From positions 1-59,134 of the IMG/VR virus record IMGVR_UViG_3300046012_000561: a stretch of DNA of 59,134 bases; one strand, written 5' to 3'. The notes under the pieces are model-generated. The model saw nothing but the letters and a program-made list of their open reading frames with translations, ran no database searches and was not told where the DNA came from. Both the position numbers and the translations under genes were made by a program. This document shows, one piece after another, positions 4,175 to 52,300 of this stretch. Numbering within the stretch: position 1 is the first letter of the stretch; each line of letters starts with the position of its first letter. Source of the stretch: a virus.

Positions 4175-4380
4175 TATCGACCCCCGCCACGCGCGGCTAG
4201 CGCCGCTTTGCCCGCTTCGTTAATAAAACACAGCGGGCCATCGACCTCGACCAGGGGCGGGTCTTGCATCCCCAACGTGATGAGGTTCTGCCGGTGCGCT
4301 TCGCTGCACCTGCCAAGATCGGCACGGCGCTGTTGCACCGCCGCCAGGCTCGCCCATTCGTGTCGGTTAAGGTTCGGCAT
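4174..4380 (-). CDS. Hypothetical protein
   Basis: A 68-residue helical protein ending in a basic tail (KAALAARGGGR). The middle, LITLGMQDPPLVEVDGPLCFINEAGKAAL, resembles the C-terminal part of small winged-helix-like proteins, though the match is too weak for a call. Its TAG overlaps the next start by one base. Confidence 0.6.
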   Translation of the reverse strand: MPNLNRHEWASLAAVQQRRADLGRCSEAHRQNLITLGMQDPPLVEVDGPLCFINEAGKAALAARGGGR

Positions 4381-4782: not shown

Positions 4783-5046
4783 CTATCGGTTGGAAGGTTT
4801 GCGGAAGGAAGGGCGGCGGCATGGCGCAATCAACTGTGCCTTGGTGATCGCCGTCATGTCGTCGGCCGTCATGATCCTGGCAATGATTTCGCGGACAGGT
4901 TCGCGCATCGCCTCGACCTCATCGCGCTCGCGCGAATGGCGATGAGGTGCTGCATGAGCCCGCCGGCGTCGAAACTCGCGTCTTTCAATAGCGGTGTGGG
5001 GCTCGCCCTGGTCGAGGCTTGCGGCGGGACCTTTCTGTGACCTCAT
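4783..5046 (-). CDS. Hypothetical protein, possibly frameshifted
   Basis: An 87-codon frame from an ATG (5044-5046) that overlaps the upstream stop. The C-terminal half (DEVEAMREPVREIIARIMTA) reads as a normal helical protein. In the N-terminal half another frame has more GC-rich third positions and a more natural sequence (DASFDAGGLMQHLIAIRAS). This suggests an indel near 4930 has joined two frames, or that the start is wrong. Treat the N-terminus as unreliable. Confidence 0.45.
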   Translation of the reverse strand: MRSQKGPAASLDQGEPHTAIERREFRRRRAHAAPHRHSRERDEVEAMREPVREIIARIMTADDMTAITKAQLIAPCRRPSFRKPSNR

Positions 5047-5393
5047 GGTTGGTCGCCCCCGTCGAACTTGGCCCAATGGGTGATGTTGTCGGCCGCGAGC
5101 TCGTCGCCTTCAGCCGCCCAGCCATAGGCGTGGCGAGTAGGAATCCACCAGACGAAGCCGCGATCATTTTTGCTACGCGTTCGGTACATCTTCCCGTCTT
5201 GGGGGACTGGCGCCAGGGTGATGTCCACCCAGTTGGCGCGCAGGCTGTCATGGACGGCCTGCATCGCCGCCAGTTCCTTGTCGGCGTCTTCCTGTTTCAT
5301 CCGGCCCGACGCCACCCATTTGGGATAGACGTTCTGGCGCATTGCGATCTCGCGCCGGACGCAGCGGATTTGATCGGCGACGGTGACGGTCAC
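5043..5393 (-). CDS. Conserved phage hypothetical protein
   Basis: A 116-residue protein. The first half is helical (TVADQIRCVRREIAMRQNVYPKW), with the pattern QIxxVxREIxxRxxVYPxxV...A..El..M.aV..TL found in small phage proteins. The second half includes a Trp-rich patch (GFVWWIPTRHAYGW). The function is unknown. It overlaps both neighbours by 4 bp. Confidence 0.72.
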   Translation of the reverse strand: MTVTVADQIRCVRREIAMRQNVYPKWVASGRMKQEDADKELAAMQAVHDSLRANWVDITLAPVPQDGKMYRTRSKNDRGFVWWIPTRHAYGWAAEGDELAADNITHWAKFDGGDQP

Positions 5394-5620
5394 GGCAACC
5401 TCCCAAAATAGATGACGCCCCTGGTGAAGAGGCTGTTCGCGGCCTTGGTGCCGACCAGCTTCATGAATTCGCCGGATGTGGTGGCGGCGAGGATTTTTGC
5501 CACCAGGGCCTTGTCCTCATCGGAGGCGCGCGTCTCGTCCATTTGCAGAAGCCCGCGCAGGGCGAAGCAGTTCTGTTCGAGCAGGGTGGGGGCTTGCTGC
5601 GCTTCAGCCAGGGTGGTCAT
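5390..5620 (-). CDS. Hypothetical protein downstream of the HerA-like ATPase
   Basis: A 76-residue protein with no recognised domain. It follows the HerA-like ATPase with a 4-bp ATGA overlap, so it is made with it and may belong to the same functional block. The sequence is mixed helical (LVAKILAATTSGEFMKLVG) with a hydrophobic C-terminus (SLFTRGVIYFGRLP). Confidence 0.62.
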   Translation of the reverse strand: MTTLAEAQQAPTLLEQNCFALRGLLQMDETRASDEDKALVAKILAATTSGEFMKLVGTKAANSLFTRGVIYFGRLP

Positions 5621-7332
5621 GCTGCCAGCACCTCGCGGGCCCAGGCCGACAGGCTCACCATGCCCGGCGACGGCTTCTCGAACACCGTCAGGGTGCAGAG
5701 CGCGCCGATCAGGTTGTTGAAGCCGCCACTGGTGGGGGAATAGTCAGTGGCGGCGGCGAGATCGTCCCTGCTCATGGGGCCGTCCTCCAGCAGCACCGCC
5801 ACAGCCAGTTTCTGCTGCGGTACCGACAGGACGGACATCACCTTGCCCTTGGCCTCGTTCTGGTTCAGGGCGTCATAGGGTGCGCCTTCCGCCAGGGCGA
5901 CATGTCCCGGCTTGGGGATGGTGATGAGGCCCGCCGTATTGAGCTGGCCCAGGAGATTGTTGAAACCTCCCGACGATGGGCTGTAACCCGCAACGCCTGC
6001 CACCTGTGCGCGGCTGGGCTCGTCCGTCCCGACGCTGGCCCAGAATCCGATCGAGGCCAGGACGCGCCGTTGGGGCTGGGGAAGACCGTCTGCGCTGCCT
6101 GCCGACGCCTGCCGGGGGTTCGCGGGGCGCGGCGGGATGGCTCCGGCGGGCGCTGGCGCCGGGATATGGCGGCTCGACCCGACGTTGACCGCCCGCATTT
6201 TCTGCCCAGGGATTGGCTTCCGAGCCGGAACAAGGGCAGGTTCGAACACCGCGCGCCGCGCCGCCAGAAACTCAAACCCAGCCCTGAAGCTGGCCTGGTG
6301 CTGGGCGTCCAGCATGGCGGGGATGGTGTCGCGAACGGCATTGGCGCCTTCCGCGCGCGCCGCCGCCAGTGCCTTTTCCTGGGCCTTATTGTCGGGGGTG
6401 ATAGCTTTTGCGACCGGCTGGGAGGTTTGCGGCGCCGCCTTGGGCTTGTCCTTCTCGGCCAGCTTGGCGGTCATCTGCGCCACGAAGGCCCCCGCCGCCA
6501 CCGGCTTGCGCTTCTCGGCTCCTGGTACCGCCGCGGCCCGCCTGTCCGGGTGCTGGCTGTTCTTGGCCGGCACCTGCAGATGGACCGGCTTCGTCAGGTC
6601 ATTGATGAAGGCCCAGCACTCGCCGGATTTCAGGCTGGGGAGGCTCTCGGCGATTTTCTTTTCTTCGCCTTCCGACAGGTCCAGCAGCGAGATCCACTTC
6701 TTCAGGTCCAGGATCGTGTTCTTGCCCTTTTGGCGGTGGACGAAGACGTTCGCGCAAAGCTCCAGGACTGACTTGTTGAGGTCGGCGCTGCGCTGGTTGA
6801 TGAGGGTACAGCCGAGCTTGGAATTGCCGCCCATGCGGACCAGCTTTTCCACCGCCGAGAACACCAGCATGTCCTGCGGCCGCTGGGGGACAAACTCGGC
6901 CGCTTCCTCGATGAAGATGTGGCGCAGGCCGTGATCGGCGTTCTCATGCAAGAGAATTTCCACCGTCTCGCGCACGATGCGGCGCCAGTCGGCTTTCGAC
7001 ATCTCGATGCTGAACAGGTCCAGCACCAGGCTGACCCCTGCCTCCATCGCGGCCCTGACGATTGCTCCCGCGTTCTTGATGGTCAGAGGCAAGTCGCCAT
7101 GCTTCCCGCCGGCCACCACCACCGGATAGCCCTTACCCCGTCCTGGAATACGAAGGCTGTGCCAGACCCCAATAGGGTCCAGGGCGATGAATGGCACGCT
7201 CGCGTCGTACAGTTCTTCCGCTGCTTCGGTGGCGGTGTAAGTCTTGCCGGAATCGCGTATGCCGAGAATGGCATTAGCCGAGATGGCGTATTCGCTGAGG
7301 GACCAGCCCTTAACGCCAAGGATCGTGGTCAT
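5617..7332 (-). CDS. HerA-like (FtsK/HerA superfamily) ATPase with duplicated C-terminal domain
   Basis: A 571-residue P-loop ATPase of the HerA/DUF87 type, which usually forms hexamers that move DNA for a partner nuclease. Walker A is GIRDSGKTYT (about residues 24-33). Walker B is RHIFIEEAAEFVPQ. A sensor-like segment, LINQRSADLNKSVL, is typical of HerA. An Ala/Pro/Lys-rich linker follows, then two related copies of a domain (about residues 430-570), each carrying YSPxSGGFNNL and likely to be a winged helix. It overlaps the NYN nuclease start by 4 bp, which suggests joint function. The partner and target are not known. Confidence 0.82.
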   Translation of the reverse strand: MTTILGVKGWSLSEYAISANAILGIRDSGKTYTATEAAEELYDASVPFIALDPIGVWHSLRIPGRGKGYPVVVAGGKHGDLPLTIKNAGAIVRAAMEAGVSLVLDLFSIEMSKADWRRIVRETVEILLHENADHGLRHIFIEEAAEFVPQRPQDMLVFSAVEKLVRMGGNSKLGCTLINQRSADLNKSVLELCANVFVHRQKGKNTILDLKKWISLLDLSEGEEKKIAESLPSLKSGECWAFINDLTKPVHLQVPAKNSQHPDRRAAAVPGAEKRKPVAAGAFVAQMTAKLAEKDKPKAAPQTSQPVAKAITPDNKAQEKALAAARAEGANAVRDTIPAMLDAQHQASFRAGFEFLAARRAVFEPALVPARKPIPGQKMRAVNVGSSRHIPAPAPAGAIPPRPANPRQASAGSADGLPQPQRRVLASIGFWASVGTDEPSRAQVAGVAGYSPSSGGFNNLLGQLNTAGLITIPKPGHVALAEGAPYDALNQNEAKGKVMSVLSVPQQKLAVAVLLEDGPMSRDDLAAATDYSPTSGGFNNLIGALCTLTVFEKPSPGMVSLSAWAREVLAA

Positions 7333-7859
7333 GCGGGCTGGGCCTCCCTCGGGGCCTTGGCGGGGCGCAAAAGCCTAGCCTTGATGGGTTCCAGGTCGAA
7401 GAAGTGATCGGCCTGCCGGCGAAGGGCGTCAGCACAGCGAACCTTTACGGTTGCGATAGTCACGCGCTTGCCGTGGCGCTGTAGGGTCTGCACCAATGGA
7501 AGAAATTGCTCATCGCCCGTGCAGAGGATGAGGTGCTGCACGCTATCGGCTATATCGAAGGCAGCGGACGCCAGATCCACCGCCAGGCTGCAATTTCCGA
7601 AGCGGCTATCGCCCCCTCGATCCTGCAACTCCTTCGTCACCACCTCGAAGCCGTGATAGTCGAGGAAGTCGAGCATCTGCCGAAGCGGCCGATATTCGTC
7701 CTGGCCGACAATGTCGATCGAGAAGAAATAGGGCCGGATCAGGTAGCGATCACCTGTCAGCGCCGCCACCAGGGCGAGATAGTCGATTGCCATCCCATCG
7801 CAGCGCAGGGCTGCATGGACGTTCTGGCCGTCGATCAGGATTGCAATGCGTTCTTTCAA
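7329..7859 (-). CDS. NYN (PIN-like) domain nuclease
   Basis: A 176-residue protein of the NYN/LabA family of metal-dependent nucleases, mostly thought to cut RNA. The acidic PIN-like active site is visible: ILIDGQNV near the N-terminus (D10, N13), D95 in SLAVDLASAAFD, and CTGDEQFLPLV (D116), followed by a Rossmann-like strand (GKRVTIATV). The length equals that of a stand-alone NYN domain with a basic C-terminal tail. It overlaps the acyl-carrier-like gene upstream and the HerA-like ATPase downstream by 4 bp each. A paired ATPase and nuclease recalls HerA-nuclease systems, but here the nuclease is of NYN type. Confidence 0.85.
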   Translation of the reverse strand: MKERIAILIDGQNVHAALRCDGMAIDYLALVAALTGDRYLIRPYFFSIDIVGQDEYRPLRQMLDFLDYHGFEVVTKELQDRGGDSRFGNCSLAVDLASAAFDIADSVQHLILCTGDEQFLPLVQTLQRHGKRVTIATVKVRCADALRRQADHFFDLEPIKARLLRPAKAPREAQPA

Positions 7860-8098
7860 AGGGCGCTCTCCACCAGCTTAAACAGGTCTTCGACGGTCAG
7901 GATCGTTGTCACCTGCTCATCAAGCAGGACGACGCCAAAGGCTTCCTCGCAGGCCATGGCGGCTTCCACGATGTCGAGGCTATCCATGCCGAGGTCCATC
8001 ACCAGGTCGTATTCCGGCTTGATGATGCTGCGGTCCCGGCAGGCCTGTTCGGCCAGGATGGTGATGATCTGCTCGCGCAGGTTGGGCTGGCATGTCAT
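7856..8098 (-). CDS. Acyl carrier protein-like
   Basis: An 80-residue acidic four-helix protein with the phosphopantetheine attachment motif DLGMDSLDIVE (Ser40), the length and pattern of a stand-alone acyl carrier protein. Family members carry an acyl or amino-acyl group on a 4'-phosphopantetheine arm. No ketosynthase, ligase or acyltransferase gene is near, so it would need host enzymes, or it may act as a structural or regulatory partner. It is coupled by 4-bp overlaps to an HTH gene upstream and a NYN nuclease downstream. The start at 8098 (MTCQPN) overlaps the upstream stop; the longer frame is unsupported. Confidence 0.85.
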   Translation of the reverse strand: MTCQPNLREQIITILAEQACRDRSIIKPEYDLVMDLGMDSLDIVEAAMACEEAFGVVLLDEQVTTILTVEDLFKLVESAL

Positions 8099-8448
8099 GC
8101 GGCCTCCAGCGCCTTCTCGGCGCGCACTTCGAGGGTGAGGATGCGGATGAGGACGGATGTGCGCGGGCGGCCGATGATCTTGTGAATCTGATATGGGGAC
8201 TTGCCTTCCGCGCCCAGCGCCAGCATCCGGGCGTCTTCTTCGGGGCTGAAGCCGCCACACTCTCGCCGCTTCACTTGGCCCCCGCCCTTCGGCCAGGGGT
8301 CGAGCCCCGCCCGGAGAAGGCGATAATTCACCGCCGACTCCGTAAGGGGAAACCGCGCCACCAGTTGCAGCACCGTCCAGCCTTCATCCTCGAATAGGCG
8401 GATCAGTTCATCGCCCTGTTCGGGCGTGAGCTTCTGGCGGTATTTCAT
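8095..8448 (-). CDS. Helix-turn-helix protein
   Basis: A 117-residue protein that appears to carry two helix-turn-helix units. The first is near residues 12-45 (LIRLFEDEGWTVLQLVARF then TESAVNYRLLRAG). The second is near residues 70-100 (DARMLALGAEGKSPYQIHKI then RPRTSVLIRI), of a GcrA/Myb-like shape. It was read from the ATG at 8446-8448, one base before the stop of the ParB-type gene. It precedes the acyl-carrier/nuclease/ATPase block and overlaps it by 4 bp, so it may regulate or target that block. Confidence 0.72.
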   Translation of the reverse strand: MKYRQKLTPEQGDELIRLFEDEGWTVLQLVARFPLTESAVNYRLLRAGLDPWPKGGGQVKRRECGGFSPEEDARMLALGAEGKSPYQIHKIIGRPRTSVLIRILTLEVRAEKALEAA

Positions 8449-8449
8449 G

Positions 8450-10309
8450 TCACCGCGCCTTTTTCTTGGCGGCCTTGGCCTTGGCGAGCTTCGCGGGCTT
8501 CTTGGCGCTGGGACCGGCATAGACCCGCGTCCGCAGCATCGGGGGGAGCCAGCCGGTGGCCTTGATTGCCGTGATGACGGGCAGGGCCAGCTTGGCCTCG
8601 CCGTCGCCCTCATGGGCTTTGCGCTGATCTTCACCAGCAGCTTCGGCCAGGATGCCGAGAAGGTGCTGCTTGCTGGCGCCGGCGACATAGGGCTTCGGGT
8701 CGAACCGCTTGGCCAGGCCAGCCTGCAGGTTCTTCTCGCCCACCAGGTCCACGATGGCCTGCGCGTCTTTGCTGCCGCTGAGATAGCCCGCCACGTTGCT
8801 GACCTTGCCGACCATGATCGCCAGCTTTCCGGCCAGCTTGTCGACCGGCAGTTTCCGCAGGTTGGCAAAAGCGGCGGCGAAGTCCTTGCCAGGGATCAGA
8901 TCGTCGGTGTGATCGTTGATGTCTTCCCAGGCGATGGCGCTGTTCCACCCGCAATGCTCCAGGGCAACCAAGAACAAGGCGAAAGCATCCTTCGGTTTGG
9001 CGGCGATCAAGTCGGCAAGGACGCTGTCCTGGATATCCCCCAGGTCACGCTCGACGGTCCCGCTGATGTCGGGGGTCTTTGGCGGCTCGGGTTCGCGCGG
9101 GACGGAAACGGCGCCAGACTTCTTCTTCGCCGCCGTTTTCGGCTCGACCTTGCGGACCAGGCCGCCGGTGTAGCTGACGGCGCCCTCGGCGGTGAGCATT
9201 GCAATCACGCCGGACTTGGCCTTCTGCTCGCCGGTAAATGATCGCATGTCACACGCCGTTTCGATCCGGCTTTCCTCGTCACTCAGCCGCCGCTCCAGCA
9301 GGTGGTCCTGTTGGTTCCAGGGCAGCTTGTCGTTGGCCTTCGTTGCCGCCTTGATTTCAGCCAGGCGGGACTTTTCTTCGACGGTCCATTTGCGCGCGAC
9401 ATTCAGCCTTCCATAGCCGTGGTGCATGAAGTTCGGGGCCATCTGGGTTTCCACCCAGGACCAGCCCTGACCTTCCAGGTGGGTGGCAAAGCCCGCCATC
9501 TTGTCCTTGGCCAGCTTCTCCAGCAGCTTCATGTCCTTGACGTTGCCGCCCTCGCCAAAGAAGTCTTCCGTCACCTCGCCCCCAGCGGCGCGGTAGGACT
9601 CGACCCCGACAAAGCCCAGCAGGCGCTTCATCTCCGGTTCTTTGTTCCGCATCAGCGAGCGGCGGATTTTGTTGACCTTGAGCATGAAGCCGTTCGCCAG
9701 GCCGTCATTCAGGGCCTTCACCTGGCTTTCGAAATCCGATGCGATGGTGAAGACTTCGACCAGTTCGCGGGTCAGCTTTCCATCCCGCCATGCGGTGATG
9801 ACCTCCGGGGCCAGAGCGGAGCCGAGCGCGATGGCCTGCTTCACCGCCTTGAGAGTCATGCCGCGCGCCTTGGCGATGTCCTCCGGGGGCGTGTCGGCCG
9901 CCAGCCGGGCGAATGTCGCCGCCTGGTCGGCGGGGTGCAACTGCACCGCCTGATTATCGGCCAGGGAGAGAGACAGGGCCTTCTCAACCGGGATCTGGCC
10001 GTGGTCCTTGATTTCGATGTGGTGGTCCTTCGGCAACCTGCCGGCACCGATCAAGCGTTCATAAGCGAGCCGGCGCCGACCACCGCCGAAGACATAGAAG
10101 ACGCCAGCCTTTTTGGGATGGGTTGCGACCAGGAAGGGGCGAAGCTGCCCGTCCTGCTCGGGCATGAGGCTGGCGGCCAGTTCGTCAATCTCGGCGTCGG
10201 TGTAGGTGAGACGGGCATTGATATTGCCGTCTGGATAGTCCTGGCCGGGCTTGAGCTGGGCCAGGGTGGCGACGCCTATGGCGGCAGAAATCTTGGCATG
10301 CGCGTTCAT
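8450..10309 (-). CDS. Large ParB-type protein
   Basis: A 619-residue protein. The N-terminus has the ParB/sulfiredoxin fold (LPVA-like strands, then VFGGGRRRLAYERLI, the ParB GGxRR box), followed by a ParB helix-turn-helix region (DIAKARGMTLKAVKQAIAL). The long C-terminal half has no clear match and ends in a Lys/Ala-rich tail. ParB-like proteins bind DNA and hydrolyse CTP or, in some phages, cut DNA. No ParA partner is visible, so plasmid-style partition is unlikely. The start at 10309 (MNAHAK) has AGAGGGAAC upstream; the longer frame would overlap the exonuclease gene. Confidence 0.83.
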   Translation of the reverse strand: MNAHAKISAAIGVATLAQLKPGQDYPDGNINARLTYTDAEIDELAASLMPEQDGQLRPFLVATHPKKAGVFYVFGGGRRRLAYERLIGAGRLPKDHHIEIKDHGQIPVEKALSLSLADNQAVQLHPADQAATFARLAADTPPEDIAKARGMTLKAVKQAIALGSALAPEVITAWRDGKLTRELVEVFTIASDFESQVKALNDGLANGFMLKVNKIRRSLMRNKEPEMKRLLGFVGVESYRAAGGEVTEDFFGEGGNVKDMKLLEKLAKDKMAGFATHLEGQGWSWVETQMAPNFMHHGYGRLNVARKWTVEEKSRLAEIKAATKANDKLPWNQQDHLLERRLSDEESRIETACDMRSFTGEQKAKSGVIAMLTAEGAVSYTGGLVRKVEPKTAAKKKSGAVSVPREPEPPKTPDISGTVERDLGDIQDSVLADLIAAKPKDAFALFLVALEHCGWNSAIAWEDINDHTDDLIPGKDFAAAFANLRKLPVDKLAGKLAIMVGKVSNVAGYLSGSKDAQAIVDLVGEKNLQAGLAKRFDPKPYVAGASKQHLLGILAEAAGEDQRKAHEGDGEAKLALPVITAIKATGWLPPMLRTRVYAGPSAKKPAKLAKAKAAKKKAR

Positions 10310-10334
10310 GTCGGTGTTCCCTCTTGGTGGTTGG

Positions 10335-11093
10335 TCAGGCGTTGGTGGTGGGGTTGGCGGCGCGGGCGCGTTCATCCAGCCAGTACCGGGCTGTGAACAT
10401 CGCGTCCTCGTCGAAATCCTTGTCGAGCATCCAGCGCAGGAAGCCGCTGTCCACTTCGGACCAGAGCTTCCAGCGTTCCTTGCCTATGTGGCAGCGGATC
10501 AGCAGGGCTGGCTGGCTGCTGCGCTTCACCAGGTGTTCGATCAGCGCGCCGCCGTTCAGCATGTCCCGCAGGTGGAAGGCGGTCACATAGGCGTCGGGCC
10601 CTGCACGGTGGGCGACGCTGGCGATGCTGCGGTCCAGGCCTTCCGGCTTTCGCGAGTAGCGCAGCGCCTGGTTGGAATGGCTGGGGGCGTCCTTCCAGAT
10701 GCGCAGGGCGCATTTGTAGGTGCAGATCCACTGCTTGCCGCCGGTCATCTCGTCCACGATGAAACTGCGTTCGAAACGGGCATTGTGGGCGGCGAAAAGA
10801 TCAACGGATGGATCGTTCAGGACTGGCGACGTTCCGAGATCAAGCATGGGCGCCCCAAAAACATCCTCGTCGATGATGTGATGGATGGCCGAAACTTCGG
10901 GCGGGATCGGGATGCCCGGATTGATGAGGACGGCGTGCGGGGCCTCGACCACCCACCCGCTGGGGCGCTTCACGCCTTCCAGGAAGTCCTCCTGCATTTC
11001 GGTGGAGACCACATCGCACCAGCCGATCTCGCAAATCTTCGCCTCGGGCGGCTCCATGCCAGTGGTCTCAATGTCGATGACGCGGATTCTCAT
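10335..11093 (-). CDS. DnaQ-like 3'-5' exonuclease (DEDD family)
   Basis: A 252-residue protein opening with RVIDIETTGMEPPEAKICEIGW, the Exo I motif (DxE) of DnaQ/RNase T-type exonucleases. Further signatures are a mid-region AAHNARFERSF (Exo II) and, later, HRAGPDAYVTAFHL (Exo III, H..GPDA). The C-terminal part beyond residue about 190 (FLRWMLDKDFDEDAMFTARYWL) is a segment often fused to phage exonucleases of this type. It likely trims DNA or RNA ends during recombination or host DNA degradation. The start is at 11093, after GGAAGGAAG. Confidence 0.88.
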   Translation of the reverse strand: MRIRVIDIETTGMEPPEAKICEIGWCDVVSTEMQEDFLEGVKRPSGWVVEAPHAVLINPGIPIPPEVSAIHHIIDEDVFGAPMLDLGTSPVLNDPSVDLFAAHNARFERSFIVDEMTGGKQWICTYKCALRIWKDAPSHSNQALRYSRKPEGLDRSIASVAHRAGPDAYVTAFHLRDMLNGGALIEHLVKRSSQPALLIRCHIGKERWKLWSEVDSGFLRWMLDKDFDEDAMFTARYWLDERARAANPTTNA

Positions 11094-11530
11094 GCCTTCT
11101 TCCTTCCGAAGCTGGAGCGTTGCGAGACGGGAGGGCACGCGCACTCATCGGCGTACTGACCGCAGCGGCCGCAGCGCGCATGCACGGGGCCGCCCACCGG
11201 CAAAACCAGAGGTTTCTTGTCCACTCGAAACTTCTCGATGCGCCCTGGATTGTTGGCCTTGGCGCGGCGGTTGCTGCTGCTGCCGGCGGTGGTGGCGCCG
11301 TTGCCATTGGTGATGACCTTGTGGCAATCGGTGTGCGAATAGGCACAGTTGTCGGGCTGGTCCTTGCCGCCGATCGCCAGCTCGTGCAGGTGTTCCTTCT
11401 GGACGTTCTTGGCTTTCAGGTCTTCCGCCTTGAAGACGACCCTGCACCGCTTGCATGGGACGATAGCGCCCTGGGCGATCAGGACCGCCAGGACTTCCAT
11501 TTCCCGAAACTGTCGGCGGCTATGCCCCAT
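11090..11530 (-). CDS. HNH endonuclease-like protein
   Basis: A 146-residue protein with an HNH-like core at about residues 26-75: PCKRC, then KEHLHELAIGGKDQPDNC, then CHKVIT. This is the zinc-bound HNH arrangement with a His-His pair and Asn. The C-terminal basic linker ends in CGRCGQYADECACP, a second zinc knuckle. It may nick DNA; phage HNH proteins serve in packaging, homing or host degradation. It is coupled by overlaps to the exonuclease gene downstream and a small gene upstream. Confidence 0.78.
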   Translation of the reverse strand: MGHSRRQFREMEVLAVLIAQGAIVPCKRCRVVFKAEDLKAKNVQKEHLHELAIGGKDQPDNCAYSHTDCHKVITNGNGATTAGSSSNRRAKANNPGRIEKFRVDKKPLVLPVGGPVHARCGRCGQYADECACPPVSQRSSFGRKKA

Positions 11531-12253: not shown

Positions 12254-12783
12254 GCCGACCTCGCAAAGTCGCCAAAGTGCAGATTTGCCGCCGCGACATA
12301 AGCCGCATGGGCTAATTCAGGCGTATCAAAAATGCCCAGATGTTTTTGGGTGCCATCAATACAGATCATCGCCTGGAAGCGACCATTCGGCCTGGGTCGG
12401 ACCCCTTTTAGCCCAACCGTATTGCGCTTATTGAGGCGCGAGTTGTGCATATTCGTCGTTTTAGTGGCGCTTCGGAGATTGCACCACTTGTTGTTCAGGC
12501 CATTTCCGTCCCGATGATCGACCAAGGCCGGAGGCCAAGCGCCCGTCATATAGAGCCACGCCAGGGTATGAGCTTCCGTTGTGCGCCCTACAATCGTGAT
12601 CCGCCAATAGGCGCTACCGTCTGGCTTGCTGGACGCCCATCCTGCGGCCTTGCCGGAATACCTCGCGTTCCACTCTTGGCGGGCATTCTGGCGGTGACGC
12701 CATATGAACGCGCCTGTCTCAGGCACATAGGTGAGGATAGATTTCAACGTGGCCTGGTCTAAACGGAGCTTCCATGGGGTCAT
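12250..12783 (-). CDS. HNH homing endonuclease with AP2-type DNA-binding domain
   Basis: A 177-residue protein. An HNH nuclease core lies at about residues 72-117 (HTLAWLYMTG, then VDHRDGNGLNNKWCNLR), followed by an AP2/ERF-like DNA-binding segment at 124-170 (GLKGVRPRPNGRFQAMI, then GIFDTPELAHAAY). This is the classic free-standing phage homing endonuclease architecture. Base composition is a little poorer in GC than the neighbours. It replaces nothing obvious, but sits between the YqaJ nuclease and a conserved gene with 4-bp overlaps at both ends. The start at 12783 overlaps the exonuclease stop. Confidence 0.9.
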   Translation of the reverse strand: MTPWKLRLDQATLKSILTYVPETGAFIWRHRQNARQEWNARYSGKAAGWASSKPDGSAYWRITIVGRTTEAHTLAWLYMTGAWPPALVDHRDGNGLNNKWCNLRSATKTTNMHNSRLNKRNTVGLKGVRPRPNGRFQAMICIDGTQKHLGIFDTPELAHAAYVAAANLHFGDFARSA

Positions 12784-13412
12784 GCGGACGCCCCGCAAGC
12801 ATCGCTAAGGCTACGAATCCTTGCTTCCATCTCGGCAAGCTCTTCATTGAAGAGTGAAACGGCTTTCGCCAACGCGGCGATGTATACTTCATCGCGATAA
12901 ATGCGCGCCTTGAACGGCGGTAATTTCGGCCAAGAGACAACCAAGTCGATCCATTCGCGACCTGCCACCCAAAGGCCACCTTGACATTGAGCCTTATGTT
13001 CTGACGGCGCCTCATTCTTGAGCAGAAGGTCGATCACGATGTGAGGCAGAGCGGATTTGAACTCCACCATGCCGTTCTTCCCAATCAAGCCGTCAGGGCT
13101 GCACCCCTTATCGCCGTTCCGGATGAACCCGACCTGAGTGACCGGCTCATCGTTCATGAAAGCGTACAGGGCGCGCGCCTCATCTTCCTGTTCCTTGCCG
13201 CGCTCCATGTGCGCGTTGGAATAGCTTTCCGCGACGGTGCCCGTAATGCGCTCGCCCACCAGTTCCCGCATGTATTTGGCGCGGGTCAGGCTGGGACCGC
13301 CGCCCTTGCCAGACGCCATGACGGTGGAAAACATCGAGGCAGTCGGAAGTCCAAGGCGGGCCGCATGCCATTCCGGCGTTCCCTGTTCACAATCGAAAAT
13401 CTGGAGCGGCAT
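12780..13412 (-). CDS. YqaJ/lambda-exonuclease-family recombinase
   Basis: A 210-residue 5'-3' exonuclease-type protein of the YqaJ viral recombinase family. It opens with the typical GTPEWHAARLGLPTAS. It carries HMERGKEQEDEAR and the PD-(D/E)xK site GCSPDGLI...MVEFKS (D107, E117, K119), with a downstream Gln-rich helix (KAQCQGGLW). It would degrade one strand at DNA ends to make 3' overhangs for the ERF annealing protein encoded two genes upstream. GAGGAAAAC precedes the ATG. Confidence 0.92.
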   Translation of the reverse strand: MPLQIFDCEQGTPEWHAARLGLPTASMFSTVMASGKGGGPSLTRAKYMRELVGERITGTVAESYSNAHMERGKEQEDEARALYAFMNDEPVTQVGFIRNGDKGCSPDGLIGKNGMVEFKSALPHIVIDLLLKNEAPSEHKAQCQGGLWVAGREWIDLVVSWPKLPPFKARIYRDEVYIAALAKAVSLFNEELAEMEARIRSLSDACGASA

Positions 13413-13419
13413 GTTTTCC

Positions 13420-14328
13420 TCAGTAGGAAATTGCGACGGCGGGAATGGCCTTCTTGGCGATCAGGATCACCACCTGCTTTGCGATTTCCTCGCTCAGCCC
13501 CCCTGCTATGAAGGCAGCGACGGCAGCGCGATTGATTGCAGCCCTGCGGGCGACTTCAGGATCAGGGGCGGGCGCGGGCGGCGCTGCAGCGGGCGCCGAA
13601 GTGGCCGCGGGCTGTTGCTGGCTGGACGCCGGCGGTTCTGGCGCTGCCTCCTGCGGTTTGGCAGCTTCTTCTTCGAGCTCGCGCACCACTGCGGCCTGAC
13701 GATCCGCTTCCGCGCGATCGGCGGCTTCCTGGCGCAGACGGGCCAATTCTGCCCGATCTGCTTCAAGAGTGGTGGCACCGGCCAGGGCTTCGGTCAGAGA
13801 GGCGTGGGCCGCATCCTTCGCCCGCTGGTATTCCGCCTCGAATTCCTCGCAAGCCGGGCCGACTTGGACGCTCTCGACATAGGCCAGGCTTTCTTTCAGG
13901 CCTGCGATGTCCCGCCCGGCGGCATTGCGCGAGAGCTCGTTCAGGAGCGTCAGGGCGTCGGTGTGCTTCTTGACCCGCGCTTCCTCGGCAGCCTCAAAAT
14001 CTGTCAGCGGTTTGCGGACTTCATCCCGCCAGGCATCGAGCGTGTCCTTGATCTTCTTCCGGCAGGCGTCGATCTTTTTCGGGATTTCCTTCTGCTCGTC
14101 GGCCAGGGTCTTGCCGACACCTTCCAGATAGGTTTTGGACTGCGCCACCTTGTACGCCATCGAGGCAATCGCCTTGCGGCTGGCGGCCGTGGTCATGTCG
14201 GGCACGAAGGCCTCAATCTCGGCGCGGATCATCGCGAGGTAGGGATCAATCGCCTTGTCGGTAGTGAAAACCGAGAAGGCGGATTCCTTCGGGATGGTGA
14301 CGAGCTGGGTGGGGGCTTCCGCGTTCAT
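13420..14328 (-). CDS. Coiled-coil protein of the recombination module
   Basis: A 302-residue protein sandwiched between the exonuclease and annealing genes. The first 120 residues are helical with conserved-looking patterns (AASRKAIASMAYKVAQSKTY). A charged helical stretch around 170-220 (EADRAELARLRQEAADRAEA) looks like coiled coil, then comes a Pro/Ala linker and a C-terminal helical domain (NRAAVAAFIAGGLSEEIAKQ). Proteins with this order are frequent beside phage exonuclease/ERF pairs. They may be partners of recombination, but no enzymatic motif is present. The start is at 14328, overlapping the upstream stop. Confidence 0.78.
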   Translation of the reverse strand: MNAEAPTQLVTIPKESAFSVFTTDKAIDPYLAMIRAEIEAFVPDMTTAASRKAIASMAYKVAQSKTYLEGVGKTLADEQKEIPKKIDACRKKIKDTLDAWRDEVRKPLTDFEAAEEARVKKHTDALTLLNELSRNAAGRDIAGLKESLAYVESVQVGPACEEFEAEYQRAKDAAHASLTEALAGATTLEADRAELARLRQEAADRAEADRQAAVVRELEEEAAKPQEAAPEPPASSQQQPAATSAPAAAPPAPAPDPEVARRAAINRAAVAAFIAGGLSEEIAKQVVILIAKKAIPAVAISY

Positions 14329-15155
14329 TTGCCGGTTCCTGTCTGGCCCGCCTTGGAGCCTTTGAGATTGAGGTTGGTGATGGCCTTCTCGTAGTCCTTG
14401 GCCAGAATGTCGGGCACGCTGTCGGCACCCATGAATTTGCAGAACAGTTCGGGGTCTGCCTTCACGCGCGCGATCAGGTCGTTGACCTTTTCCACCTGTT
14501 CGGCGGTCAGCTTCCCGGGATCGCCGCCGGTCTTGCCGTCGTCGTCCTCGCCTTTGAAGTGGAGATTGAGCAATGCCCCGGCGGTGTAGCGCTTGCCATA
14601 AGCGATGCTGGAACCAGTGGCCTGGACATTGTTCTTGCTGCCGGACGTATCCAGCGGCAGCGCCATGACGGATTCTTCGCAATGTCCCAGCTCGTGGGTG
14701 ACCACTGCCGTCACCAGCACTTTGCCGTCTTCCAGATAGCCGGTCTTGTGCGTGAGGGTGAAGCCGTGCCGGTTGAGGATGGGCGTGATCGCCGCGTCAA
14801 TATCCTCCCACTTGGGATAGGGCGTGGTCTGGATCAGGTATGCGTCTGTCTTTTCCTTGCCCTTCTCGTGAATCTTGATGAGGCCGCGCTTCTCGATGAT
14901 CGGAAGTTCCAGCTTCACCTTGAGCATTTCGCGGGTGTAGGCGGCCTTGGCCTCGTCCGCCTTCACCGAGCGGGCCAGGTTGACCAGGGTGGTGATTTTC
15001 TCCGCGCTCACATTCGGATCGAAGGCGGCGCGCTCGATGATGTTCAGCAGCGTTCCAGTTTCGGTGGTCGGCACGGCAGGCAGAGCGGCGGGCACCTGTT
15101 CGGATGTTGGGGCCAATTCGGTCTTCGGCCTTTCGACCAGGGCGGTCTCGCTCAT
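14325..15155 (-). CDS. erf: ERF-family single-strand annealing protein
   Basis: A 276-residue protein of the ERF superfamily (P22 Erf and relatives), which anneals complementary single strands in phage recombination. Characteristic parts are ..VKADEAKAAYTREMLK..KLELPIIEKRG, a PYPKWEDIDAAITPILNRHG segment, and QATGSSIAYGKRYTAGALL. The C-terminus is a helical, Lys-rich tail. It is paired with the YqaJ exonuclease downstream. The start at 15155 (MSETAL) was selected because the longer frame overlaps the upstream gene without a ribosome site. Confidence 0.93.
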   Translation of the reverse strand: MSETALVERPKTELAPTSEQVPAALPAVPTTETGTLLNIIERAAFDPNVSAEKITTLVNLARSVKADEAKAAYTREMLKVKLELPIIEKRGLIKIHEKGKEKTDAYLIQTTPYPKWEDIDAAITPILNRHGFTLTHKTGYLEDGKVLVTAVVTHELGHCEESVMALPLDTSGSKNNVQATGSSIAYGKRYTAGALLNLHFKGEDDDGKTGGDPGKLTAEQVEKVNDLIARVKADPELFCKFMGADSVPDILAKDYEKAITNLNLKGSKAGQTGTGK

Positions 15156-15421
15156 GTCGTCTCCTTGGTGGTGTTGAAATGATCCCGCCCGATAGCGACG
15201 GCGGCGCAATAGGTGATCGGGCTTGCGGGCTTGCCGTAGGTGAAGGGCTGGCCTGCCATGGGCTTGAAGCCGTCCCGGCGCAGGCGGAGCCTGACCAAGG
15301 CAGACGGCGGCGCGGTCAGGACGATGCGGGTTCGGTGGCGACCATCCATGATCGCCATGCCCTCGTATTGCTCGATGAGCCTGGGCGGTTCTTCCGGGGT
15401 CTGGATGGTGCGACGGATCAC
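15152..15421 (-). CDS. Hypothetical protein
   Basis: An 89-residue basic protein beginning at GTG (15419-15421), which overlaps the stop of the upstream gene. The middle (HRTRIVLTAPPSALVRLRLRRDGFKPMAGQPFTY) is beta-rich with an RLRRDGF motif. Short proteins with LR..GFxW......W occur in many phages without known function. Confidence 0.66.
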   Translation of the reverse strand: MIRRTIQTPEEPPRLIEQYEGMAIMDGRHRTRIVLTAPPSALVRLRLRRDGFKPMAGQPFTYGKPASPITYCAAVAIGRDHFNTTKETT

Positions 15422-18022: not shown

Positions 18023-18051
18023 ACGATAGTGGGACGTATCCCATCCTTCAA
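18023..18051 (-). promoter_or_regulatory. Leftward early promoter (PL-like)
   Basis: Read on the minus strand, TTGAAG (18046-18051) and TATCGT (18023-18028) are separated by exactly 17 bp, giving a fair sigma-70-type promoter pointing into the leftward operon. One 14-bp operator fills the spacer and another lies just upstream of the -35, so the bound repressor would block it. The assignment rests on sequence only. Confidence 0.55.
18030..18043. promoter_or_regulatory. Repressor operator OL1-like
   Basis: The dyad TGGGACGTATCCCA lies in the spacer of the leftward promoter. It matches the operator consensus built from the five sites in this immunity region (TGGGA-N4-TCCCA, with at least one TGGGAC half). 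Confidence 0.75.
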
Positions 18052-18065
18052 TGGGACAAATCCCA
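18052..18065. promoter_or_regulatory. Repressor operator OL2-like
   Basis: The dyad TGGGACAAATCCCA is identical to the site at 19332-19345. It is centred 22 bp from the neighbouring operator, about two helical turns, which would allow cooperative binding of repressor dimers on one face of the DNA. Confidence 0.75.
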
Positions 18066-18367: not shown

Positions 18368-18600
18368 GGGACTGGTGCCGGCAAAGAAGCCTCTCGCACC
18401 CGATAACAGCCGGTTCTTGGCGTTGCACACAGCCAAACCGTCCCAGTGATTCGATTGATCACCCAAAAGCGGCCACCGGCCGGTATCCCAGTATAAATAC
18501 CGCCTAAAAATACGGCAGCCAGCAGCGCCAGGCCCCCGATTGCCATCAACACCCGGCCGTCGCCTATCGTGCCCCAGCAGCGTCGGACAGCTTCAAACAC
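18364..18600 (-). CDS. Small membrane protein downstream of the repressor
   Basis: A 78-residue protein starting at GTG (18598-18600), which overlaps the 3' end of the repressor gene by 8 bp. After a short helical start it has one strong transmembrane stretch (LMAIGGLALLAAVFLGGIYTG) and a basic, Cys-containing C-terminal part. Because it is co-transcribed with the repressor it should be made in the lysogen; an accessory immunity role is possible but unproven. Confidence 0.6.
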   Translation of the reverse strand: MFEAVRRCWGTIGDGRVLMAIGGLALLAAVFLGGIYTGIPAGGRFWVINRITGTVWLCATPRTGCYRVREASLPAPVP

Positions 18601-19270
18601 CGTAAAGCTCTCCCCAAGGCACGACCCTGTGGATTGCTTGAATGTCCTTCCGTTGGAAGGCCAATGTCCGCTTGGGCTCAAACTGTTGGAGCGTGATAGT
18701 TTTAGAATTCACAGCGATAAGTTGCTTTATGAAGGCCCGCGGCGCCTCGCCAGCCTTTTGGGGCCGCATCTGGACCACCACAAAGTCCTCGATTTGATAT
18801 GGTTGTCCGGGATGGACGTACACGGGCGTTCCGCTTTTTGCCCACGGCCACATGGAGTTACCGACCACATAGAGGGCATAGGCCTCCCGAATCCCGTAAA
18901 GGCGAGGAGGCCGTTTGACGTAATCTATAGGCCCACTATTGAACTCGAATTCGCCATCGTCTCCGCATTGAGCCGCTCCAAGAACCGGCATATCGCGCGG
19001 CATCAGGTCAAAGCGAGGCATGTCGCGCAAATCTGGGCGGTCGCCACCAGGCGAGGCAGATCCCGGCGGAGGCTCAAGAAACCAATCCGTTATCGGGATT
19101 CCCAAGGCGTTTGAGAGCTTCTCGGCATTGGGAATTTGAGGGGTTACACCCCTCTCAAGAACATCGCGTAAGAAGGTTGAATTGAGCTTTCCGCGCCGGG
19201 CAATCGGTGCCCATTCCTTCCCAGCGACCAGTTCTCGCAGCAAGTCTCGCCAGTTAGCCCGAATCTTCAT
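18593..19270 (-). CDS. CI-type phage repressor with S24 (LexA-like) peptidase domain
   Basis: A 225-residue repressor. The N-terminal part (about residues 15-65) is a helix-turn-helix of the XRE/bacteriophage CI type. The C-terminal part is a LexA/UmuD-type self-cleaving domain: the cleavage region LGAAQCGDD (Cys102-Gly103, like the UmuD bond), the catalytic Ser139 in VVGNSM, and Lys182 in FIKQL. RecA-stimulated self-cleavage would release lysogeny. It starts at the ATG 19268-19270 and has almost no leader. Operators lie just upstream, so it should control its own synthesis and the divergent cro-like gene. Confidence 0.93.
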   Translation of the reverse strand: MKIRANWRDLLRELVAGKEWAPIARRGKLNSTFLRDVLERGVTPQIPNAEKLSNALGIPITDWFLEPPPGSASPGGDRPDLRDMPRFDLMPRDMPVLGAAQCGDDGEFEFNSGPIDYVKRPPRLYGIREAYALYVVGNSMWPWAKSGTPVYVHPGQPYQIEDFVVVQMRPQKAGEAPRAFIKQLIAVNSKTITLQQFEPKRTLAFQRKDIQAIHRVVPWGELYGV

Positions 19271-19286
19271 GGTGGTTGGACGGTAA

Positions 19287-19300
19287 TGGGCTCCGTCCCA
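19287..19300. promoter_or_regulatory. Repressor operator OR3-like
   Basis: The imperfect dyad TGGGCTCCGTCCCA, whose consensus TGGGAC half is on the minus strand. It is the operator closest to the repressor start (17 bp away) and would cover the -10 region of the repressor promoter, the position of lambda OR3. Confidence 0.68.
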
Positions 19301-19309
19301 TGGGCGAAA

Positions 19310-19323
19310 AGGGAAGTGTCCCA
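19310..19323. promoter_or_regulatory. Repressor operator OR2-like
   Basis: AGGGAAGTGTCCCA, with its consensus half on the minus strand. It ends exactly before the -35 of the rightward promoter and is centred 23 bp from the site at 19287-19300 and 22 bp from that at 19332-19345. Confidence 0.7.
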
Positions 19324-19353
19324 TTGACAAATGGGACAAATCCCACCCATCTT
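19324..19353 (+). promoter_or_regulatory. Rightward early promoter (PR-like)
   Basis: A perfect TTGACA (19324-19329) is followed after 18 bp by CATCTT (19348-19353). Transcription would begin near 19360, at or within a base or two of the cro-like ATG, so that mRNA may be leaderless. The spacer is occupied by an operator. The -10 is weak, so the exact start is uncertain. Confidence 0.55.
19332..19345. promoter_or_regulatory. Repressor operator OR1-like
   Basis: TGGGACAAATCCCA, the same sequence as the leftward site at 18052-18065. It sits in the spacer of the rightward promoter, the position expected for a primary blocking operator. Confidence 0.75.
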
Positions 19354-19359
19354 GGGATG

Positions 19360-19608
19360 ATGTCGGATCACCAGCCAAAATCGCTACTCCAGGAAATCGA
19401 GGAATTTCTCAGTCGGCAAGATTTGGGGATGACCGAAACTGCATTCGGCATTGCAGCCCTGAAAGACGGCAAGCTCATCCCAAATCTGCGCAATGGTCGG
19501 CGCCTTTGGCCTGAGACCGAAGCCAAAGTCAGAAATTTCATCGCTAGTGAGATCAAAAGGCTGAGCGAAGAGGCGCCGGAAAAGCGGCGCCGAGGGGCCC
19601 TCGCATAA
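19360..19608 (+). CDS. Cro-like DNA-binding protein
   Basis: An 82-residue protein divergent from the repressor gene. The helical sequence (LLQEIEEFLSRQDLGMTETAFG, then NLRNGRRLWPETEAKVRNFI) is a small one-domain helix-turn-helix typical of alphaproteobacterial phage Cro-like proteins and their chromosomal relatives. It begins at tandem ATGs (19357, 19360), with the operator array directly upstream and essentially no leader. By position it should compete with the repressor for the operators. Confidence 0.78.
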   Translation: MSDHQPKSLLQEIEEFLSRQDLGMTETAFGIAALKDGKLIPNLRNGRRLWPETEAKVRNFIASEIKRLSEEAPEKRRRGALA

Positions 19609-49339: not shown

Positions 49340-52300
49340 ATGGCCCTTGATCTGGCTGGCCTTAAGCCAGTTGGCGATGCGCCGCGCTTCGATGTGGGCG
49401 GCCTAAAGCCGCTCGATGTAGCGCCGGATCGCTCCTTCGCTGATGTTCGGCAAGGCTCGATTGACGATAACGAGGCAGACCGCTTCCGCGCCGTGAAAAC
49501 GATGGCCGCGGCGGCGTCGCCCAATGAGAGCGACTGGCTCGATCTGGGCAAGAAGGCGCTGGAAAACGGCTGGACCAGCTTTCGCCAGGCGGCGGGCGGT
49601 ATCGCCCAATATGCCGGCGAGAACATGCCGGCCCCTTACGGCGCCGATGTCCCGATGGGCTTTGCCGAGAGTGCCCAGGCGGAGAACCTTTCCAAGGCCA
49701 TGAAGGGGAGCGTCGCGATTTCTGGATCGCCCGCCAATATCGGAAAGGCGATTTATGACGCCGCCACTGCCGACATCAAAGCCAATGCCCCCAAGCTGAA
49801 CGAAGGCAGCGCGAAGGATTACGCTTATCAGGCCGGCACATCGCTTGTGCAGATGATTCCGACTTTGGCGGCGTCTCTCGCCACGGGAAGCCCGGCACCC
49901 GGCTTGGCGCTGATGGGTGGCCAAGTCGCCGGCCAGCAATACGGGCAGGCCCGCAATGAGAGCGGTCGCAGCCCCGACCAGGCCGGCGTCGATGCCATGT
50001 TCTACGCCTTGGCCGAGACCATCCCCGAACAAATCCCCCTCGGCATCCTGATGAAGCCAGGCGGCAAATTCCTGCCCAGGCTGCTCAAGACGATGGGCGC
50101 CGAGGGCCTTCAGGAAGCCTTCACCCAGGTTCTGGAATCCGGGTACGACAAGGGCACCGTCAGCCCCGACATGACATGGGGCGATGCGTTCCGGCAAGTT
50201 CGGGACGCGGGCATTGTCGGCGCTGTCATGGGCGGCGGCTTGGGCGCAGCGGCCCACCCCTTCACGCGGGGAGGGGCCGAGGAGCCCAAGCCCGAACCGG
50301 AAGCGCCGCCTGCGGCCGAACCCGGCCCGCAGGTCGAGCCCCTTTCCACCCAGGGCCTGACGCCCCTAGAAGCGCCTCCCGAGGCTGCTCCCGTCCCGAC
50401 CGCGGCAAAGGTCATCCCCAACGAAGAACCCCTATACGACGCCACTGGGGAGTCCCAGATCGGCTGGCATGATCGGGCGACCGGCCGCATCCGCATGCTG
50501 GAGAAGCAGCCGGAGGAGGTGGCCAGGGCTGTCATGGACGCGCCCAGCCTGCACGATGCCATTGCCACGGCGGAGGCAGAAGCGTTTGCGCCCGTGCACG
50601 GCCTGCCGGAAGACGTCGCGCCGCCGGTGGAGAGCGATCTCGTTGTGCCGCCCGCGCCGCTGGAGCGCGTCGAGCCGGTGCCGCTGGCGCCCGTCTCCAG
50701 CCTCGAAACCCCGGCGGTGGCCAGCGCCGGCGAAATGCCGCCCGCCGCCCGGGCCCCCGAGGGGATCACCCCTGCCGCCAGTGAAATCAATGCCTTGGCC
50801 GAAGAACAGCCCCAGGAGGAGATCACCCCCCCGCCAGCCCGCACCGGCCGCGTCCGTGGCCTTCCCCGCCGGCTGACCAAGGGCCCCGAAGACGCCGCCA
50901 TGTTCCTGGCTTCCCAAGGCGGCATCCGAAACGACGAAGGCCATGACCTTGTTAAGGGGCGGGGCCTGCAACAGTTCGTGCCCGGGCTTGGCCCCCTGAT
51001 CCGCCCCAAGGGCATGACCATAGACGCCGCCGGGCAAAAGCTCTGGGAAGCCGGGTTCTTTGGCCAGGTCGATCATGGGGAAGGCGTCAGGGAGGCCAAC
51101 GGGCCAACCGAGGCCGATGTCCTGGAACTGTTGGAGCGCACCGGCCGGGGTGGTGACGGCCGCCCCACAAAGGTCTTCCGCCCTGGTGACGCCGCGGACA
51201 TCGAAATCGCGCGGGAGGGCGAGCGAGTGGCCGAGGCCAATGCCAGCGTCCTGGAAGACGTTCACAACTACGCCAAGAGCCTGAGCGAAACCCTGACGGA
51301 AGCCGAGGCGGACCAGATTGTCAGCGACATGGTCGCCCACGGCATCGATGCCGAATCCGCCGTGGTCGAACACCTTGAACGCAAGGCTATCCAGGAGGAC
51401 AATGAGGACCATGCAGATGCAGCAATCCAGCCCGCGCCCCAGGCCCACCCTGTCGTTGAAAGAGCGCCAGGCGTTGATCGAGCGGCTGGAAGCGGGGTCC
51501 AAGAACCCGAAGCTGTCCCCGGAAACGAGGGCGGCCCGCAAATCGAGAGCGAACCAGCTCAGGCGGATTCAGGAACTTCGGATCAGCCAGAAGCGGAAGT
51601 AGCCTCCCAGCCAGAGGGTATTCCGCCGCTACCGCATGGCAATGGGTCCTGGGTCATTGTGGACCGCGCCACCGGGCATGCCGCCGCCGAGATTTTCAAG
51701 GGCGACAAGGCGATCAGCCGCGTCAACCTGGAACGGTACAAGGCCGTCCCCGCCGGGGAATATCTGGCCAGCCTGAATAAGGCCAAGGCCCTCACCATCC
51801 CGTCCGAACTGAAGCCGCTGGCCACCGAACCGGGTGCGCTCGACGGGCAGGGCAGAGCCGTTCCCCAGACCATCGCTCCCGGCGCAGACCGCAGCGCTAT
51901 CCAGCTTTCAGCGGCGCGTGAAGCCGCCGGTCATGGACTCTCCACCACCAAGGTCCAGCAGAAAGACGCTGGCGGCATGTTCGCGGCGCCGGAGGAAAAG
52001 GCCACGGACCTGTTCGAGGCGTCCCCCAAGGTGGAACAGGCCGACAATGAACGCCCGATGGCGCAACGCCGGGAAACGGTTTTTGACTGGGGCAACGAGG
52101 GCGGCGGCTCACGCGTCACCAAGATCGGCCCCACCGAAATCACCTATGGCATCGGCAAGGACAAGACGGCAGAACTGACGCTGGTCCGAACCGCCAAGGG
52201 AAGTCGAAAGCAGGGCGCGGCGCGCGCCGCAGTCGAGCAATTCTTGCGTGAAGCTGACGCGCGCGGATATGCCGTTCACCTCACCGCCGATCCGATGGAG

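Follow-up and report, generated by a model that had tools for sequence, protein, structure and literature searches.

Four consecutive genes of a tailed phage, encoding an HTH protein, an acyl carrier protein (ACP), an NYN protein and a HerA-like ATPase, raise the question of whether they constitute a single unit or are merely adjacent members of a longer operon. The initial annotation had treated them as a coupled block, and suggested a prophage-borne anti-phage or counter-defence system. The window, i.e., the whole stretch of DNA analysed, is the 59,134-bp IMG/VR virus record IMGVR_UViG_3300046012_000561; its relevant features are collected in Table 1.

Genomic context and extent of the operon

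The genes for the terminase large subunit and portal, and the capsid region, were situated rightward of ~30 kb. The portal matched that of a Manatee Spring phage (40% identity over 87%), with further matches among Roseobacter and Rhizobium phages, and because of these matches and a G+C content of 62% we infer an alphaproteobacterial host. A single 2155-aa open frame at 49340–55807 probably encodes a large protein that is either internal to the virion or multidomain. The leftward operon spanned ~15 kb to 2 kb and carried genes for Erf, YqaJ, an HNH protein, a DnaQ-type exonuclease and a ParB-like protein, followed by the block, p76 and p116. The S24-type repressor gene upstream of it was flanked by two 35-bp repeats (80% identical, at 18031–18065 and 19311–19345) with TCCCAT/ATGGGA palindromes, which are likely to be operators. 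The presence of this repressor agreed with the description of the block as prophage-borne, but the record, which may be incomplete, yielded no tyrosine integrase.

Table 1. Positions of the block and associated genes in the window
Feature	Position (bp)	Strand	Remarks
HTH protein, 117 aa	8095..8448	-	phrog_323 'D5-like', E 2.4e-6
ACP, stand-alone, 80 aa, Ser40 in DSL	7856..8098	-	phrog_5934, E 2e-16; PF00550
NYN/LabA-like protein, 176 aa, TTG start	7329..7859	-	PF01936
HerA-like compact translocase	5617..7332	-	RecA/FtsK-HerA core and C-terminal repeats
p76, small protein of no assigned function	5390..5620	-	directly 3' of HerA in L012 and L013 too
p116	5043..5393	-	after p76 in L013 too
ParB-like protein	8450..10309	-	67% identical to the gene that immediately precedes NYN in L013, a homology also used to set the start
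DnaQ-type (RNase_T/DEDD) exonuclease, same leftward operon	10335..11144	-	directly before NYN in L012
YqaJ-type recombination exonuclease, same leftward operon	12780..13412	-
Erf-type single-strand annealing protein, same leftward operon	14325..15209	-	start approximate
S24-type (CI/LexA-like) repressor, upstream of leftward operon	18593..19378	-	start approximate

The coordinates, frames and order of the four genes were confirmed on the sequence, as were the three 4-bp overlaps that join them: ATGA between HTH and ACP, TTGA between ACP and NYN (where TTG is the start codon) and ATGA between NYN and HerA. These overlaps had been the basis for regarding the four genes as coupled, but the chain extended beyond them, with ATGA joining HerA to p76 and GTGA joining p76 to p116; the ParB-like gene lay 1 bp upstream of the HTH gene. 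Since the overlaps run on through p76 and p116, a 4-bp overlap cannot serve to delimit these four genes as a unit, and the block is a slice of the operon rather than a closed unit. The same continuation favours the alternative that the genes are neighbours by chance, i.e., that the early operon is a mosaic in which HTH, ACP, NYN and HerA are independent, and 4-bp overlaps are a product of compact phage coding.

Structure of the HerA-like ATPase

The ATPase possessed a Walker A motif (GIRDSGKT) at residues 24–31 and a Walker B motif (IFIEEA). Its structural model (pLDDT 86.9, pTM 0.57) comprised a RecA/FtsK-HerA core at ~1–270, a long helix and low-confidence linker at ~280–362, and two C-terminal helix-turn-helix-like repeats at 419–571, most blocks of which had pLDDT >90 in the model of the full protein. 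The core matched HerA (8xav_A) with Z 27.0 over 244 residues and an rmsd of 2.5. It aligned to HerA chains only from HerA residue ~120 onward, i.e., without the HAS barrel, and no such N-terminal barrel was present in the ATPase, where the open frame extended just ~14 codons upstream of the start and the Walker A motif begins so early. On this model, the protein is a compact motor of the FtsK/HerA kind with a C-terminal pair of winged-helix-like repeats, which the initial annotation had also noted. Of 38 HerA-family relatives, 23 matched PF01935 and one matched Pfam FtsK_SpoIIIE, while winged-helix Pfam models matched single relatives only; the window ATPase itself fell below PF01935.

The HerA-NurA, HerA-SIR2 and HerA-DUF4297 systems share with the window an FtsK/HerA-type RecA motor core and a nuclease-fold neighbour in the operon. 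Unlike them, the window ATPase has no HAS barrel, the domain that holds NurA in the archaeal HerA-NurA complex (PMC12977600), and carries two C-terminal winged-helix-like repeats instead. Its neighbours are NYN, with an incomplete catalytic set, and p76, rather than NurA, SIR2 or DUF4297. FtsK/SpoIIIE-type translocases provide the other likeness, in that they combine a motor with a C-terminal winged-helix DNA-reading module (predicted here); in FtsK it is the C-terminal winged-helix gamma domain that reads DNA. The window core nevertheless resembled that of HerA (Z 27) more than that of FtsK (Z 16), and the protein differs in having two repeats and no membrane part. Direct repeats within the leftmost 20 kb of the window offered no obvious target for the winged-helix-like tail.

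The core also spanned 199 of the 205 residues of STIV B204, a small packaging motor (Z 21.7). This likeness to a packaging NTPase (Z ~21), together with the packaging ATPases among the viral-library matches, might suggest that the ATPase serves as an accessory motor for genome packaging. That seems highly improbable, given that an ordinary terminase large subunit and portal are encoded in the late region of the same phage, that the ATPase gene belongs to the early leftward operon, and that relatives of the ATPase occur on plasmids.

The NYN protein and the case for defence

The NYN protein matched PF01936 (E 4.4e-22) and its model (pLDDT 90.2) displayed the same fold as LabA/VPA0982-type NYN proteins, aligning with VPA0982 (2qip) over 156 residues at Z 21.2 and 30% identity, and with the MARF1 NYN at Z 17.4. 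In a study of CRISPR-associated NYN proteins, D14, D92 and D115 of Vpa0982 were named as conserved active residues (PMC11346440). Unlike these proteins, the window NYN has no equivalent of D92: D10 and D116 were kept, but the middle position was occupied by Ala93 or, when aligned with phmmer, by Ser91. Judged on the sequence, D95, two residues beyond Ala93, could substitute for the missing residue. An Asp occupied the middle position in 16 of 20 other viral NYN sequences of the alignment, and in none of the three HerA-linked NYNs (from the window and from loci L012 and L013, described below); two of these three, L012 and L013, additionally had Asn at the third Asp position. As this Asn was also seen in unlinked NYNs, it is no proof of a dead enzyme. 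The earlier description of a NYN nuclease retaining its acidic residues was therefore accurate for D10 and D116, but not for the middle Asp of the triad.

These features bear on the idea of an anti-phage or counter-defence complex, carried by a prophage, in which NYN replaces NurA, SIR2 or DUF4297. HerA and a nuclease-fold gene do share one transcription unit here, HerA is used by known defence pairs (PMC11291478), and PADLOC returned matches, weak and partial, to HerA and NYN models. Yet the ATPase has no HAS barrel, the element that docks NurA in HerA-NurA; the catalytic set of NYN is incomplete, and worse in L012 and L013; and the genes sit among Erf, YqaJ and DnaQ, not in an accessory island. 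We consider a defence function improbable, and the proposal gained no positive support. A HerA-plus-nuclease neighbourhood need not mean defence.

Linkage of the genes in other phages

Single-protein queries with HerA and NYN against IMG/VR gave no matches, and alignment queries were needed. Among 81 HerA-family loci compared from IMG/VR (best 80 of 389 in the first scan), none contained the full four-gene set, and only two, L012 and L013, had NYN beside HerA. Nor did any of 80 phage ACP loci, or any of 26 NYN loci, combine the four genes. The supposed four-gene unit was thus seen nowhere else among the loci compared, which, by the criterion that the initial annotation itself had set, refutes it as a unit; L012 and L013 were also the only ones of the 26 NYN loci with HerA next to NYN. 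In both, the order was NYN-HerA-p76, preceded directly by a DnaQ-type gene in L012 and by a ParB-like gene in L013. An order of YqaJ, then DnaQ and/or ParB, then NYN, HerA and p76 was common to the window, L012 and L013, while the intervening genes changed. NYN identity among the three was 29–48%. The NYN-HerA-p76 sub-cassette was therefore supported by two divergent relatives, although the linkage is possibly plain common descent, because only three phages are concerned and much of the operon is shared.

Counts from whole records revealed no enrichment, since Pfam matches to NYN occurred in two of 50 HerA records and none of 40 random records (p = 0.5). A ParB-like gene was found near HerA in 13 further loci besides the window, and scans for ParB and close HerA relatives yielded one extra relative, L366, which had DUF5131 and no NYN. 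NYN was absent from the next-closest HerA relatives, L015–L019, as well. In the genome contigs searched, there was no HerA relative closer than ~30–37% identity. A literature search found no open paper that combined ACP, 'phage genome' and NYN.

Independent exchange of motor and tail

Comparison of the three ATPases gave opposite results for their two ends. The window motor (residues 1–260) was 76% identical to that of L012 and 32% identical to that of L013, while the tail (416–571) was 18% identical to L012 and 75% identical to L013. By these identities, motor and tail have recombined independently among the three phages, as would suit a motor whose DNA-reading tails can be exchanged. NYN identity to the window (35% for L012, 29% for L013) tracked neither part closely, arguing against a finely co-evolved interface between NYN and motor; equally, the pairing of 76%-identical motor cores with 35%-identical NYNs argues against a tight, obligate complex.

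A chance neighbourhood would account for this lack of co-divergence, for the free swapping of genes between YqaJ and NYN in the relatives, and for the absence of NYN from L015–L019 and L366. It does not sit well with the persistence of the NYN-HerA-p76 order in three phages despite 29–48% NYN identity, nor with the rarity of NYN in phages otherwise (0/40 random records). We regard it as rather unlikely, while giving it appreciable weight.

The acyl carrier protein and HTH gene

The ACP matched PF00550 (E 3.6e-9; 37.2 bits against a cut-off of 20.8) with Ser40 inside GMDSLDIV (MDSLD), which verified that it is a stand-alone ACP with an intact DSL serine. Using a five-member ACP alignment as query, 80 phage ACP loci were retrieved, and none had HerA or NYN within ~8 kb. 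The serine was widely kept in these relatives, with a DS-hydrophobic motif in 86 of 87 phage ACP matches among the loci by a loose text test; retention of the serine is the normal state of solitary phage ACPs. An ACP-like protein at 632–895 of L088 had Thr in place of the phosphopantetheine serine (LDTLDW). The neighbours of phage ACPs varied by phage group, and included lysozyme and ribonucleotide-reductase-like genes (named by eye from their sequences).

Solitary phage ACPs have been reported before, their function being termed unclear or the genes being described as auxiliary genes of lipid metabolism (PMC8224337, PMC5463345). Those of phrog_5934, acpP of roseobacter prophages and gp32 of Erythrobacter phage R6L are likewise single ACP genes with a DSL serine in a phage operon; the window ACP differs in lying between an HTH gene and NYN, and has no fab genes alongside. 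Both ACP and HTH were absent at the NYN-HerA position in L012 and L013. No relatives of the HTH protein were found in any fetched locus, and none near HerA, with one weak phage match elsewhere.

The ACP might nonetheless be a working part of the system, its phosphopantetheinylated form binding and regulating HerA or NYN. The serine motif from which that modification is predicted is intact, the gene overlaps tightly with NYN, and in L025, an unrelated HerA phage, the HerA gene is followed in a row by genes for a DnaQ-like exonuclease and for an ACP whose DSL is intact (7914–10602). Such a role is very improbable, since neither NYN-HerA relative has an ACP, the 80 other phage ACP loci are without HerA and NYN, and in whole records Pfam matches to ACP occurred in just two of 50 HerA records (one far from HerA, the other L025), against 0/40 random records. 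L025 is the best remaining lead for a link between ACP and HerA, but a single case is too few to claim one. Most likely, the ACP gene belongs to a known type of phage auxiliary gene and is a passenger here.

Possible function of the NYN-HerA-p76 cassette

The explanation that we tentatively prefer, at a little under an even chance, is that NYN-HerA-p76 is a real unit within the early recombination operon that runs leftward in this tailed phage, that HTH and ACP were later additions between ParB and NYN, and that the product is a DNA translocase with an exchangeable tail and an atypical NYN as its accessory. The ATPase would form a ring that pumps double-stranded DNA, like FtsK/HerA motors, while the winged-helix tail may read DNA sequence or load the motor, by comparison with the FtsK gamma domain. 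Such a motor could aid phage genome processing, recombination or partition alongside Erf, YqaJ, the DnaQ-type exonuclease and the ParB-like protein. NYN would be either a weak nuclease or a nucleic-acid-binding adaptor. The ACP, presumably charged by host enzymes, would have a target of its own, either the lipid metabolism of the host or a single host protein.

A more specific version, which we think unlikely, would have the catalytically atypical NYN stand in for the lost HAS barrel, as the subunit for loading or docking, on a motor with a swappable, sequence-reading tail; this would be a new HerA partnership in phage recombination or partition. 

HerA motors are familiar mainly from end resection in archaea and from anti-phage complexes in bacteria. 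A large family of phages and plasmids in which the docking barrel has been lost and exchangeable winged-helix tails have been acquired would represent a second way of steering the same motor. For phage biologists, it would provide a translocase that can be tested, encoded in early recombination operons and present on hundreds of viral contigs.

Associations of the wider HerA family

Viral contigs accounted for 389 of 436 pattern matches to the HerA family, and relatives were also present in 29 plasmid records and 47 genome loci. A link between the family and YqaJ was rejected, as YqaJ occurred in 6/50 HerA records and 6/40 random records; a general recombination role for the HerA family is therefore unsupported. 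DUF5131, by contrast, was found in 15 of 50 HerA records against two of 40 random records (Fisher p = 0.003), often side by side with HerA, and this association of the wider family was firmer than that of NYN-HerA-p76. DUF5131 genes (Gp37/Gp68-like, 'IEWTDATWNP..C...C..C') stood beside HerA-family genes in many phages, for example at 4211–5347 in L049, 5997–7097 in L366 and 2836–3897 in L005.
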